Part shown: piece by piece, positions 7,051 to 13,881 of the stretch
How the letters are laid out: each line of letters starts with the position of its first letter
Position numbering within the stretch: position 1 is the stretch's first letter
Source: Synechococcus sp. CBW1002
Lineage (GTDB): Bacteria > Cyanobacteriota > Cyanobacteriia > PCC-6307 > Cyanobiaceae
DNA length: 64,000 nucleotides
NCBI RefSeq assembly: GCF_015840915.1
Contig: NZ_CP060398.1
Coordinates: forward strand, 496,001 to 560,000
Direction: 5' to 3'
The notes under the pieces: model-generated
The model's database searches: none
What the model was told of the DNA's origin: nothing
The model's input: only the letters and a program-made list of their open reading frames with translations
Made by a program: the position numbers and the translations under genes

Positions 7051-7470
7051 ATGGCACAGGGCCGACGGGTGGAACGGGTGGCGGCCCTGATCCGCCGCGA
7101 AATCAGCGAGCTCCTGATCACGGGCATCAAGGACGAACGGGTCAGCCAGGGCATGGTGAGCGTCACCCATGTGGATGTGGCCGGCGATCTGCAGCACTGC
7201 AAGATCTTCGTGAGCGTGTTCGGCAGCGACGACGACCGCATCCAGGCGATGGCCGGCCTGCAGTCGGCCGCGGCCTACGTGAAAGGCGAACTGGGCCGCC
7301 GGCTGAAGATGCGCCGAACACCCGAGGTGGTGTTCCAACTGGATCGTGGCCTCGAACGCGGGACCACGGTGCTGAGTCTGCTGAACCGCCTTGGGGAAGA
7401 ACGGCTGAGCAAAGACAGTGAGCCACCCTTGACTGAGGCCCCCGAGGACCAGAACGGCACTGCGCCATGA
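7051..7470 (+). CDS. rbfA: Ribosome-binding factor A
   Basis: 139 residues from ATG 7051. RbfA binds the 30S subunit and helps mature the 5' end of 16S rRNA. The KH-type fold is recognisable from [17 protein letters not shown], the [20 protein letters not shown] segment, and the helix-strand end [21 protein letters not shown] hydrophilic tail of about 30 residues follows. Its TGA overlaps the ATG of the next gene (ATGA at 7467-7470), indicating translational coupling. Confidence 0.95.
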
Positions 7471-9143
7471 CGGCGGCCGGGGCTGGCGCTGGAACGGCCA
7501 CGGAGCAGGACCTGCGGCGCCTGGTGGCCGAGCTGCTGGTGGTGCGCTGCAGCGGCCACCTCAGCGACGATCAGCGGCGCTATCCCCGCTGGGAGCTCGA
7601 CAACGCCACCCTGCGGCGCCTTCTGGCTGAGGGGGTGGGGGGCGTGATCCTGCTGGGCGGCAGCGCCGCCGAGCTGGGTCTGCGCTGCCGCCAGCTCCAG
7701 GCCTGGTCAGGCCAGCCACTGCTGCTCTGCGCCGACGTGGAAGAGGGGGTGGGGCAGCGCTTCGAGGGGGCCAGCTGGTTGGCACCACCCCTCACCCTGG
7801 GTCGCCTCTACCAGCGGGAGCCAGGGCGAGCCGAGGAGCTTGCCGAGCGCTATGGCCGCTGCACGGGCGCCGAAGCCCGGGAGCTGGGCCTCAACTGGGT
7901 GCTGGCGCCGGTGTGCGATGTCAACAACAATCCCGCCAACCCGGTGATCAACCTGCGCGCCTGGGGGGAGGTTCCCGCCACCGCGGCGGCCCTGGCCACG
8001 GCCTTCCTGCGCGGCGCCCAGGCCGAGGGGGTGCTGTGTTGCGCCAAGCACTTCCCGGGGCACGGCGACACGGCCGTGGATTCCCACCTGGAACTGCCCC
8101 GCCTCGACCACGAGCGCACCCGGCTGGAGCAGGTGGAGTTGCCGCCTTTCCGGGCCGCGATCAACGCTGGTGTGGCCTCGGTGATGACCGCCCACCTGCT
8201 GCTGAGCGAGCTGGACAGGGAGCAGCCTGCCACCCTGTCGCCGGCCGTCCTGGACGGACTGCTGCGCCGGGAGCTGGGCTTCAAGGGCCTGATCGTGACC
8301 GACGCCCTGGTGATGGAGGCGATTGCGGCCCGCACCGGCGGGGCCGAGGCCGCCGTGCTGGCCCTGGTCGCCGGGGCGGATCTGGTGCTGATGCCGGAGA
8401 ACGCCGACGCGGCCATCGACGCAATCCTGGAGGCCGTGCAGCAGGGCCGCCTGTCGCCAGAGCGGCTGGCAGCCAGCCAGCAACGGCGGCGACGCGCCCT
8501 GGCCTCGGTCGCGGAACCCGCGGCTCAGCAGACGTCCGCCGCAGACGCGGCCCTGCCACTCCAGCGCCTGGGTGAGGGGCCCCGGGCTGAGCACCGGGCA
8601 CTGGCCAGGGAGCTGGTGCAGGGCGGTCTGCAGCATCGCGGCGGCCGCCTGACAGTCCGCCCGCAGGGCACACCGAGCGCGGCAGGCTGCAACCTGATTC
8701 GTATCGACAACGCCCTGCAATGCCCTGCCCTGCCGCTGGGGGCACCAGCCCTGAACCTGCCGGCCGCAGCGGGCTTCCGGAGCCGCTTGCTCGAACCTCG
8801 CAGCCCCTCCCCCTGGAGCCAGGATCCCCGCCATCCGCTCAACCTGGAGAGCCTGGGCAGTGGAGCGGTGCTGCTGCAGCTGTTCCTGCGCGGCAATCCC
8901 TTCACCGGCGGCGCCGGCGGTCAGGAGCCGTGGGAGAAGGCGATCCAGCAACTTCAGGAGCTCGGCCGGCTGGCTGCCCTGGTGGTCTACGGCAGCCCCT
9001 ATCGCTGGGACAGCCTGGTGGCGGAGCTCGACCCGCAGATTCCAGCCGCCTACTGCCCCGCCCAGACACCGTTGGCCCAGCGCTACGCCCTGGAGGCCAT
9101 CGGCCTGGGAGAAGGAAGCCAGGCTGGGTCCTTCACAGACTGA
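7467..9143 (+). CDS. nagZ: Glycoside hydrolase family 3, beta-N-acetylhexosaminidase (NagZ-type)
   Basis: 558 residues from ATG 7467, coupled to rbfA. The GH3 TIM barrel covers about residues 20-350. The NagZ signature [14 protein letters not shown] is near residue 193 and contains the His/Asp dyad used by NagZ. The nucleophile Asp is in [12 protein letters not shown] near residue 275. NagZ enzymes release N-acetylglucosamine from peptidoglycan fragments during wall recycling. The remaining 200 residues form a less conserved C-terminal domain seen in cyanobacterial GH3 proteins, so the protein is longer than E. coli NagZ (about 340). No signal peptide is visible, so it should be cytosolic. 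Confidence 0.88.
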
Positions 9144-9204: not shown

Positions 9205-11235
9205 ATGGGCACCGAGCCTCAGCTCAGCCTCTCGATGATCGTGCGCGATGAGGCCGCCTGCCTGGAGCGCTGCCTGGCCTCGGTACGGGACTTCGTCGAC
9301 GAGATGGTGGTGGTGGACACCGGCTCAGCCGATGACACGGTGGCGATCGCCGAGCGGTGTGGCGCCGTGGTGCACCCGATCACCTGGCCCGGCGATTTCG
9401 CACCGGCACGCAACCGCGCCCTGGAGTGGGTCCGGGGCGCGTGGGTGTTGGTTCTCGATGCGGACGAGGTGCTGCTCCCCGAGGCCATTCCCGCTCTGCG
9501 GCAACTGATGGAGCAGCCCGACCTGCTGCTGATCAACCTGCTGCGACGGGAGCAGGGGGCCAGTCAGTCGCCCTATTCCAGTGTCAGCCGCCTGTTCCGC
9601 CGCCATCCGGCGATCCACTGGAGCCAGGCCTACCACTCCCTGGTGGACGACAGCGTGATGGCGCTGATGGCGCAGGAACCCCACTGGCGCATTGCCGACT
9701 GTCCGGAACCGGCCCTGCTGCACGACGGCTACCGGCCGGAACTGCTGGCCGATGGACGCAAGGCCCAGCGCCTGCGCCAGGCGATGGAGCAGGAACTGCG
9801 CCGCAAGCCCGGCGACCCCTACGCCTGCGCCAAGCTGGGCGCCCTCGAGGTGAGTGACGGCAACGCGGCACGGGGGCTGTCCCTGCTGGAGCAGGGATTG
9901 GCCCAGTGCCCCGCTGAAGCGGTGGCGGAGCGCTACGAGCTGCTGCTCCATCTCGCCATCGCCACGGCGCCATCCCAGCCGCAGCGGGCCACCACGCTGT
10001 ATCGCGAAGCCCTCACCCAGCCCCTGCCGGCGCGGGTCCGACTGGCGGCCTTTCACAATCTGGCGGCGCTGCTGCTGCAACAAGCCGAGAACGCTGGACC
10101 CTCAGCCACGCCATCCGACCTGAGCGAAGCCCTCGAACTGGCCCGTGCCGCCACCGGCGCCGCTCCCGAACTGGCGCCGGGCTGGATCCAGCTCGGTCTG
10201 ATCGAACGGCGCTGCGGTCACCTGGAGGCCGCCGCCGCGGCCTACCGCCGAGCGATCACCTGCGATAGCAGCCAGGCAGGGGCCCACCAGAACCTGGGAG
10301 TGGTTTCCCTGCTGATGGGCGACATCCCCGCAGCCCGCGAGGGCTTCCGTCAGGCGATCGCCCTGCTTACCAGCCAGGGCAAGACCTCGGCAGCGGAGGC
10401 CCTGCGCCAGCAGGCGTCCTCGCTGGTGAAGCTGGAGCCTGCCAGCCCGTTGACGGGCCGCACCGTGGCGGTGACCCGGGCGGAGCAACAGCTGGGGGAA
10501 GCTCGCGCTCTGTTTGAGGCGATGGGAGCGCGCGTCGTGGATCTGCCGGCCCTCGTGATCGGTCCCCCCGATGAATGGGGTCCGCTCGACGACGCCCTGG
10601 CGGAACTGGAGCACTTTCACTGGCTGATCCTGTCCAGCGCCAACGGGGTGGAGGCGGTGCAGCAGCGGCTGCGCCGCCGCGGCGGCGACCTGGCGCACCT
10701 CCCCGGCAGCCTCAACATCGCCGCGGTGGGCCGCAAGACGGCCCGGCAGCTGGAGGATCTCGGCGCCCCTGCAGACTTCGTACCTCCTGCCTATGTCGCC
10801 GACAGCCTGATCGAGCACTTCCCTGTCTCAGCCTGGGGCCTGCGGTTGCTGCTGCCACGGGTGCAGAGCGGCGGCCGCACCGTGCTGGCGGAGGCCTTCG
10901 GCGAAGCCGGTGCCCGGGTGGTGGAAGTGGCCGCCTACGAAACGCGCTGCCCTGAGGCCCTGCCCTCGCAGACCCTGCTGGCTCTGGAGCGCGGCCACCT
11001 GGATGCGATCACCTTCAGCAGCGGCAAGACGGTGAGCCACACCTGCCAGCTGCTGCAGCGCCACTTCGGGAGCGACTGGCGCCAGCGGCTGGACAGCGTG
11101 GCCGTGATTTCGATCGGCCCCCAGACCACGGCCCGCTGCCGCCAGGAGCTGGGCCGGGTGGACGCCGAAGCGGACCCCCATGACCTCAACGGACTGGTGG
11201 CGGCCTGCTGCAGGGCCCTCAGCGAACAAGGCTGA
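9205..11235 (+). CDS. Fusion: family 2 glycosyltransferase - TPR - uroporphyrinogen-III synthase
   Basis: 676 residues in one open frame from ATG 9205 (GTG 9181 is an alternative). Residues about 8-230 are a GT2 domain: LSLSMIVRDEAACLERCL, VVDTGSADDT and the metal-binding LDADE. Residues about 285-405 are TPR-like helices (LGLIERRCGHLEAAAAAYRRAI). From about 417 to the end the protein is a HemD-type synthase: TGRTVAVTRAEQQLGEARALF, LILSSANGVEA, ITFSSGKTV and VISIGPQTTA. HemD closes and inverts ring D of hydroxymethylbilane to give uroporphyrinogen III for chlorophyll, haem and bilins. A TTG at 10450 just before the HemD part could start a separate HemD; a GGAG lies about 14 bases before it. 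No stop separates the two activities. Confidence 0.85.
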   Translation: MGTEPQLSLSMIVRDEAACLERCLASVRDFVDEMVVVDTGSADDTVAIAERCGAVVHPITWPGDFAPARNRALEWVRGAWVLVLDADEVLLPEAIPALRQLMEQPDLLLINLLRREQGASQSPYSSVSRLFRRHPAIHWSQAYHSLVDDSVMALMAQEPHWRIADCPEPALLHDGYRPELLADGRKAQRLRQAMEQELRRKPGDPYACAKLGALEVSDGNAARGLSLLEQGLAQCPAEAVAERYELLLHLAIATAPSQPQRATTLYREALTQPLPARVRLAAFHNLAALLLQQAENAGPSATPSDLSEALELARAATGAAPELAPGWIQLGLIERRCGHLEAAAAAYRRAITCDSSQAGAHQNLGVVSLLMGDIPAAREGFRQAIALLTSQGKTSAAEALRQQASSLVKLEPASPLTGRTVAVTRAEQQLGEARALFEAMGARVVDLPALVIGPPDEWGPLDDALAELEHFHWLILSSANGVEAVQQRLRRRGGDLAHLPGSLNIAAVGRKTARQLEDLGAPADFVPPAYVADSLIEHFPVSAWGLRLLLPRVQSGGRTVLAEAFGEAGARVVEVAAYETRCPEALPSQTLLALERGHLDAITFSSGKTVSHTCQLLQRHFGSDWRQRLDSVAVISIGPQTTARCRQELGRVDAEADPHDLNGLVAACCRALSEQG

Positions 11236-11244
11236 GGCAACCCC

Positions 11245-11811
11245 TCAAAGCTCAGCCGTGATCGTGCGGTCGGCCTGGCGCAGCACCAGACGCCCCTGCT
11301 GCACGTCCACCGCCTGCACAGACCAACCAGGCGGCAGAAGATCGGTGGAGCGGCCACCCTGATCCCCGGGAGCAAGACTGCCGCTCACAGATTCGAACTG
11401 GACAAGAGCCTTCGGCCGACCACTGGATGCCACCACACCATTGAAGCGGAAGGCTTCGGGCAACAGCAGTGGAGGTCGCACCTCCGTTCCAGGAGCTCCT
11501 GGAAGGCCAGAGATGAGCTGGCCGTTGGCACTGAGCAACGGCGAACTAAAGGGATCCAGGCGGCCGACCACCATGGAAGCCACCACGGCCTGGGGCTTGA
11601 GCAGGGGAGTCAGGCCGGCAGAGTCGAGCGGAGGTTCGGACAGAGGGTTCTCCCGGGCTGGCGGCTGGCGATCGGGAGCAGGCGCCTCAGATGCAGGGCC
11701 GCCGCCAAAGCCGGGGATCGAGAAGGGAAGCTCAATCCCCTGACAGCCCGTCAGCAGCAAGGTCAGCGCCAGGGCCGCTGGAGATTTCGACCAGGTCGCG
11801 AAAACGGTCAA
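11245..11811 (-). CDS. Putative lipoprotein, unknown function
   Basis: 188 residues if started at TTG 11811; the frame stays open to 11838. The N-terminus has a short hydrophobic stretch (LALTLLLTGCQG) with a lipobox whose Cys would be lipidated, so an envelope lipoprotein is predicted. A Pro-rich spacer (about 30-70) precedes a mixed region with VVGRLDPFSSPLLS and GWSVQAVDVQQGRLVLRQADR. No family was recognised. Its 5' end overlaps the 3' end of the SRPBCC gene by about 80 bp on the same strand, and its 3' end lies 9 bp from the convergent HemD fusion. Confidence 0.6.
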   Translation of the reverse strand: MTVFATWSKSPAALALTLLLTGCQGIELPFSIPGFGGGPASEAPAPDRQPPARENPLSEPPLDSAGLTPLLKPQAVVASMVVGRLDPFSSPLLSANGQLISGLPGAPGTEVRPPLLLPEAFRFNGVVASSGRPKALVQFESVSGSLAPGDQGGRSTDLLPPGWSVQAVDVQQGRLVLRQADRTITAEL

Positions 11812-12211
11812 GGTTGGCCTGCAGTTCCTTGGTGACAATGCCCCCCAGGATGGTGGGTTCCATCAGGGGTGCAAGCACCCCCGGCAGCTCATAGCTGACG
11901 CTGAGCCGGACCGTGGTGCATCCGGGACCCTGGGGATAGAAGCGCACCGCCCCCCGGGTCGGCAATCCCCCCACCGATTCCCAGTGCAGCTGCTGGGCCT
12001 CGACCCGCTGGGTGATGCGAGCCTTCCAATGAAAACGAAATCCCTGGGCCGCCAGGGTCCAGTCGGTGAGATCGGGGTCATCAAGGGTCTTGACCGACTC
12101 GATCCAGCGCATCCAGCGCGGCATCGCCTCGAGATCGCTCCACACCACCCAGACCCGATCCGCGGGGGCCTGGATCTCGGTGGTGACGCTGTGCTCAAGC
12201 CAACGGCCCAT
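11732..12211 (-). CDS. SRPBCC (cyclase/dehydrase-like) protein
   Basis: 159 residues from ATG 12211. The START/SRPBCC fold is indicated by TTEIQAPADRVWVVWSDLEAMPRW, MRWIESVKTLDD and the C-terminal helix TKELQANLDRFRDLVE. These proteins bind hydrophobic ligands such as lipids or polyketides; the ligand here is unknown. It lies 18 bp downstream of crtQ on the same strand, an order also seen in other picocyanobacteria, so a carotenoid-linked role is possible but not shown. Confidence 0.82.
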   Translation of the reverse strand: MGRWLEHSVTTEIQAPADRVWVVWSDLEAMPRWMRWIESVKTLDDPDLTDWTLAAQGFRFHWKARITQRVEAQQLHWESVGGLPTRGAVRFYPQGPGCTTVRLSVSYELPGVLAPLMEPTILGGIVTKELQANLDRFRDLVEISSGPGADLAADGLSGD

Positions 12212-12229: not shown

Positions 12230-13732
12230 TCAGGCCACGGCCGCATTGCTGGCGAGCTGAACCGGGCGGTCCAGAATCGCGGCCGCAGCCAGACGCCCGC
12301 TCATGGTGGCGCCTTCCATCGAATCGATGTAGTCCTGGCGGGTGTAGCTGCCCGCCAGAAAGAAGTTGGACACCGGGGTGCGCTGATCCGGGCGAAACGG
12401 CTCCATCCCTGGCGCCTCGCGGTAGAGCGACTGGGCCAGCTTGACCACGTTGCTCCACACCAGCGTCAGGTTGCGGGCCGAGGGGAAGAGGCTGCGGACC
12501 TGGGCATCGGTGGCGGCCACGATCTCCTCGGTCTTTTTGGGAATCCAGGGATCGCCCGGGGTGAGCACGCATTGCAGCAGCGAGCCCAGGCCAGGCCTGC
12601 GGTAGTCCACCGGGCTGGCCAGGGCCAGATCCGCGAAGCAACTGAAATCGGCGTCTGCCGTGTAGAGGAGATTGTCGAGACCGGCCGGATGGGCGAGGTC
12701 GGCCCGGCGACCGGTCGCCTCGGCGGAATCGCCCAATTCGGTGACCCAGCCGTCGTAGCGGAGCTGCACGGTGGCCACCGGCACGGCCTCCAACCGGTAG
12801 ATCGCATCAAAAGCCTCGTGGCAGCGCCAGGCCTGCGGCAGCAGGCGCTGGATGCCGGGCACATCACAGGCGGCGAGATAAGCATCGGCCTGCACGTTCA
12901 GATCCCCCGCCGGTGTTCCCATCGTGAGCCCCGTGACCCGGGTGAGCGGAGCAACGGCGGGATCACCGGGCTCTGCGGGTGCCTCCTCAAAGTGCACCTC
13001 CTTGACGCGGTGGCGTAGGTGCAGGCGGCCGCCACGGGCTTCGATATAGGCCAGGATCGGGCCGGTGAGCCAGCGATGGGGCGACCCCTTGAGCAGGTTG
13101 AGCTTGGAGGCCTCGGTCTTGGCCGCGAACATCATGAAGATGGTGAGCATGCAGCGAGCCGAGATCGTGGCGCAATCGATGAAACCCAGCGCGTAGGCCA
13201 CCGGATTCCACATGCGCTCGATGCTGCGCAGGCTGCCTCCATGGCCGAGGAACCACTCCTGGAAGCTGATCCGATCGAGATCGCGGATCACCTGCATCGC
13301 CCCCTCGTAATCCACCAGTCCGCGCACGATCGGGCTGGTGCCCAGGGCCAGGGCATTGCGCAGCTTGTCGATCCAGTCGAGCTGGGGGGTGGTGAAGAAG
13401 GCCTTGAGACCGTTGAAGGGGGCGCCGATCGGAAAACGGAAATCGAGTTCGCGCAGATCCCCACCCGCATTCACGAACAGGTGGGTGTGGTCCTTGGGCA
13501 GGAGGTTCTCGAACGCCCCCACCTTGCGCATCAGGGCGAAGAGGTTGGCGTAGTTGAAGAAGAACACATGCAACCCCATCTCGATGTGGTTGCCCTCGGG
13601 ATCTTCCCAGCTGCCCACCTTGCCACCCATGAAGGGCCGGGCCTCGTAAAGATCCACCTGGTGACCGGCATCGACCAGATCCACTGCCGCGGAGAGTCCC
13701 GCCAGCCCCGCTCCCACGATGGCGACCCTCAC
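12230..13732 (-). CDS. crtQ: Zeta-carotene desaturase (CrtQ/ZDS)
   Basis: About 500 residues from GTG 13732 ([19 protein letters not shown]); a TTG at 13747 would add five. It dehydrogenates zeta-carotene through neurosporene to lycopene at the membrane. The N-terminal FAD-binding GxGxxG is followed by [15 protein letters not shown] and [16 protein letters not shown], typical of plant-type ZDS rather than CrtI. The C-terminal FAD signature is [20 protein letters not shown]. The upstream part of the pathway (crtP, crtB) is at 49.4-51.7 kb in this window. Confidence 0.93.
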
Positions 13733-13881
13733 CCTCTGAATTCCCAAACTGGGCCGACTCTATGGAGACGGCTGCGCCAGCGAGCGGATATCCGGTCGAG
13801 GCAGCCGCCAGCCTGTGGCGTCTGTCGGCGAGACGACAGCCCCAGCAGCACGGAAAGTCAGAGGGATGGCTGCAACAGCGC

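Follow-up and report, generated by a model that had tools for sequence, protein, structure and literature searches.

The window analysed here, a stretch of 64,000 nucleotides of the Synechococcus sp. CBW1002 genome, contains a gene in which a GT2 glycosyltransferase (GT) domain, TPR-like helical repeats and a HemD (uroporphyrinogen III synthase) domain follow one another (Table 1). A preliminary description of the locus had read it as one open frame of 676 residues joining these three parts, and this reading was upheld throughout. No internal stop interrupts the frame between its ATG and TGA. The GT2 domain was recovered with Pfam (PF00535, Glycos_transf_2, residues 11-155, 3e-19, 70 bits against a cut-off of 23.3), and this match, together with the acidic motif LDADE, of which DADE is invariant across 40 aligned sequences, places the fused protein in the GT2 family. 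The repeats gave a Pfam TPR match at about residues 324-371 (1.3e-06). The HEM4/HemD match (PF02602, residues 434-665, 6.1e-45, 153.6 bits against a cut-off of 27.5) spans positions 4-230 of the 231 in the profile, that is, nearly the whole of it, as expected for a full-length member of the HemD family. The fusion keeps all 55 GT columns for which the other rows of the alignment are invariant, and 126 of the 130 HemD columns invariant in relatives. A conserved tyrosine has been reported to be important for the cyanobacterial HemD enzyme (PMC7242693).

Table 1. Features of the fused gene and its upstream neighbour (window positions)
Feature	Position	Strand	Evidence
Fused GT2-TPR-HemD gene, 676 aa	9205..11235	+	ATG to TGA frame; same frame in CS-1328
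GT2 glycosyltransferase domain, about residues 1-200, LDADE at 84-88	9205..9810	+	PF00535 11-155; invariant columns; Foldseek SunS/ThuS
TPR-like helical repeats, about residues 185-405	9811..10422	+	PF13414/PF00515; helices in AlphaFold model
Junction LVKLEPASPLT: native GT C-terminus LVKLE, HemD N-terminus PLTGR; lacks the stop and ATG seen in relatives	10423..10455	+	Junction alignments
In-frame TTG, putative internal HemD start, GGAG upstream at 10434-10437	10450..10452	+	
HemD (uroporphyrinogen III synthase) domain; no second one found in the genome	10441..11235	+	PF02602
GH3 beta-hexosaminidase-like (NagZ-like) gene, directly upstream	7467..9143	+	PF00933; NF003740 below cut-off

An AlphaFold model of the fusion was built from a 40-row alignment; for alignment purposes only, the stop at the junction was read through in the rows of some relatives. 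The model comprises three domains in the order GT, helical repeat (about residues 185-405) and HemD. Since the mean pLDDT is 86.6 but the pTM is 0.58, the folds of the domains are confident whereas their mutual arrangement is not, and no confident packing between domains was found in the model. Foldseek matched the SunS/ThuS glycosyltransferases, TPR proteins and uroporphyrinogen III synthases.

The GH3 gene and the fusion probably belong to the same transcription unit. The GH3 gene is preceded by rbfA (the two together at 7072-9143, + strand), with which it overlaps by 4 nt (7467-7470). The convergent neighbours are an SRPBCC/polyketide-cyclase-like gene (11732-12211, - strand) and a zeta-carotene desaturase gene (12230-13747, - strand; TIGR02732, 872 bits). 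In two cyanobacterial genomes of another family (G046 and G423), hemD lies downstream of the GT-TPR gene with a tetrapyrrole methylase (cobA-like) gene in between, which shares 4 nt with the GT-TPR gene; the annotated gene order was read in G046 (L143, 1519-4245). There too, a cluster of tetrapyrrole genes begins with the GT gene. At locus L046, which has no neighbouring GT, a GH3 gene is followed directly by hemD. Nostoc-type genomes encode a GT-TPR protein at 41-46% identity, and no HemD match was found in the 4-kb flanks of its gene. These arrangements indicate that the neighbourhood is old but breakable, and that HemD can do without an adjacent GT.

Within the Cyanobiaceae, the counterpart of the fusion is a gene pair (for example in Synechococcus sp. 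RCC307 and WH 5701) encoding orthologous proteins in the same order, with identities to most relatives of 55-68% for the GT portion and about 70-79% for HemD. The pair, unlike the fusion, is divided into two genes by a stop and a start. Of 89 separate-gene loci, in which the start codon nearest the GT stop was taken, 48 show an overlap of 1, 4 or 11 nt between the HemD start and the GT stop; in 37 the start lies 0-25 nt past the stop, and in 4 it is further off. Gene pairs overlapping by 4 or 1 nt are those in which translational coupling arises, and short gene overlaps are over-represented among the genes for complex subunits (PMC10666635). The codons of the GT C-terminus (CTGGAGG...) appear to serve also as the hemD Shine-Dalgarno sequence in many relatives (L062, L152 and other separate-gene loci). 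One contig titled Bifidobacterium breve (L103) carries a cyanobacterial GT-TPR/hemD pair, and therefore this record is probably mislabelled or contaminated.

A search for the fused architecture in picocyanobacteria, which the preliminary description had named as a check, was carried out among 400 genomes of the family. Twenty-two genomes were colinear across both genes, 19 of them with exactly one junction stop (TGA or TAG); the three stop-free cases were the window genome, Synechococcus sp. CS-1328 (G001) and Synechococcus sp. GFB01 (G252). Long open HemD frames had suggested further fusions in G296, G273, G222, G162 and others, where the genes turned out to be separate. The fused state was found only in the genus of the window genome and in GFB01, although the adjacency of the two genes is old.

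In the relatives, one or two residues separate LVKLE, or a close variant of it, from the GT stop, and HemD begins within a few codons, as in LVKLET*AMTFPLAGRRIAVTRAE at locus L062 (the asterisk marks the stop). The junction in the window reads LVKLEPASPLTGRTVAVTRAE. True fusion and loss of a stop codon between adjacent genes had been posed as alternatives; both hold together, and only the change of a single stop into a sense codon has to be given up, since the junction contains neither the stop nor the HemD ATG and falls three codons short of its counterpart in L062. These features fit better with a small in-frame deletion or replacement. The ancestor would have carried a GT2-TPR gene followed by hemD, overlapping or a few bases apart, and the pair was probably translated by termination-reinitiation. 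In the ancestor of the genus, a small in-frame deletion or replacement may then have taken out the GT stop together with the HemD start codon. This would have linked the native ends of the two proteins, adding about three residues, and left HemD on the native C-terminus of the GT-TPR protein. The fusion looks like an easy evolutionary step and not like proof of a new enzyme scaffold.

The frame of GFB01 (L070/L158), from an assembly that is 78% complete and 6% contaminated, is also single and open, with the same domain order. Its junction, LVKLEADATAGSPMALQAAAARSLQGRR, differs from that of the window in its longer linker and in the ATG retained inside it, and the strain belongs to a different genus, g30, whose other listed members have separate genes. 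FastTree grouped GFB01 with three separate-gene relatives (support 0.93), while IQ-TREE placed it elsewhere, still apart from the genus of the window genome. Forcing the three fusions into one clade cost 16 log units and was not rejected (AU p = 0.084). Because g30 otherwise has separate genes and the junction differs, a second, independent fusion in GFB01 is likely, and with it two origins of the fused state, though the sequences at hand do not prove them.

Almost all relatives have the two genes separate, as would be expected if a sequencing or assembly error had deleted a stop in the window, and the preliminary description had allowed for a lone exception of this kind. This is contradicted by CS-1328, the only other genome of the genus in the comparison set. 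This independently sequenced species has the same junction and an identical 676-residue architecture without indels, at 95% identity. At a dS of 0.15, dN/dS between the two genes is 0.19 (0.185 overall; GT 0.13, TPR 0.26, HemD 0.17), showing purifying selection, the 20-codon linker having too few changes to be judged separately. Given this copy, and a junction from which the stop and the ancestral HemD ATG were lost together, such an error is ruled out for practical purposes, and the two genomes indicate that the join is real, fixed and maintained in a small picocyanobacterial genus. It is less simple to decide whether HemD is nevertheless made mostly as a free protein, by internal initiation at the TTG at 10450 (or a GTG at 10426), which would render the fusion largely silent for HemD. 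The TTG lies in frame, as had been claimed, and the GGAG upstream of it, contained in the codons for LE, is kept and gives a duplex energy of -5.6 kcal/mol, near the median of -6.4 for the hemD ATG of relatives. The same holds in CS-1328. TTG is rare in the frame (4 of 92 leucine codons), and the GFB01 junction even retains an ATG. However, TTG is usually a weak start, the spacing of 12 nt is long, and at 4 of about 87 loci in relatives a TTG stands by chance at the equivalent leucine. Conservation in CS-1328 says little because the two genomes share recent ancestry. The GTG has a weak Shine-Dalgarno match (-3.4 kcal/mol). A scan limited to the sigma-70 consensus found no internal promoter for a separate hemD, which weighs little. 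We regard predominantly free HemD as unlikely; if it were true, initiation at either codon would mean that the long chain does not matter for HemD activity.

The fusion could also fix a functional link, with the TPR helices holding HemD near a partner such as HemC or CobA, or with the GT acting on the tetrapyrrole branch point. The adjacency of the GT-TPR gene and hemD across much of the Cyanobiaceae, the position of the GT-TPR gene ahead of the cobA-like gene and hemD in G046, and the known enrichment of short overlaps among complex subunits all speak for such a link. Against it stand the rarity of the fusion, the family members in which hemD has no adjoining GT (and likewise L046), the Nostoc-type GT genes with no HemD match in their flanks, and the low pTM of a model lacking interdomain packing. 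Scaffolding of HemD by the TPRs is possible, and a fusion that fixes such a link seems to us improbable. Hardly better placed is the broader proposal that GT-TPR and HemD form a functional pair across the Cyanobiaceae, either as a TPR complex at the uroporphyrinogen III branch point or through a flux-tuning glycosylation, of which the fusion would be the covalent form.

The best explanation as a whole, to which we assign a probability of about 0.75, is a real, fixed fusion that arose from a coupled gene pair and gives a chain with two activities. The product would most likely be a single protein of about 73 kDa whose two activities are independent. The N-terminal part would be a glycosyltransferase with TPR helices, possibly with a protein or peptide acceptor by analogy with GmaR and SunS, and the C-terminal part would act as an ordinary synthase. 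Cyanobacteria need HemD, which is essential for chlorophyll and haem. The preliminary description had named a second hemD as something to look for, and none was found in the genome (3.85 Mb, one contig, 99.7% complete), whose single HemD match is that of the fusion. We infer that most of the product is the long chain, with both of its domains active. Coupling of sugar transfer to tetrapyrrole synthesis is not needed to explain the fusion.

HemD is already known as one domain of longer chains, in fusions with CobA and with HemC (PMC4921024) and in the HemD-HemX type described by NF005411. CobA and HemC are pathway neighbours of HemD, whereas the partner in the window, a GT2-TPR protein, has no known link to the pathway. 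The fusion falls outside these types, NF005411 scoring 69.5 bits against 414 and covering the HemD part only. The N-terminal GT2 is similar in sequence to GmaR of Listeria (1.2e-17), which also has TPRs after the GT (PMC9638930), and in fold to SunS/ThuS (Foldseek). These proteins, unlike the fusion, have no HemD domain; their acceptors are flagellin and a bacteriocin peptide, and the suggestion of a protein acceptor comes from this resemblance. The SunS model TIGR04195 gave 47 bits against a cut-off of 350, so the fused GT does not count as a SunS equivalog. The literature searched contained no report of a GT-HemD fusion, most subscription papers lying outside its reach.

The GT2-TPR protein is thus a new fusion partner for the known enzyme HemD, in one genus and probably in one further strain. 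Taken with the widely conserved and often overlapping gene pair, the fusion hints at a possible link between an uncharacterised glycosyltransferase and tetrapyrrole synthesis. Should no such link exist, it would still be a clean natural case of a translationally coupled pair turned into a fusion through loss of a stop and a start.
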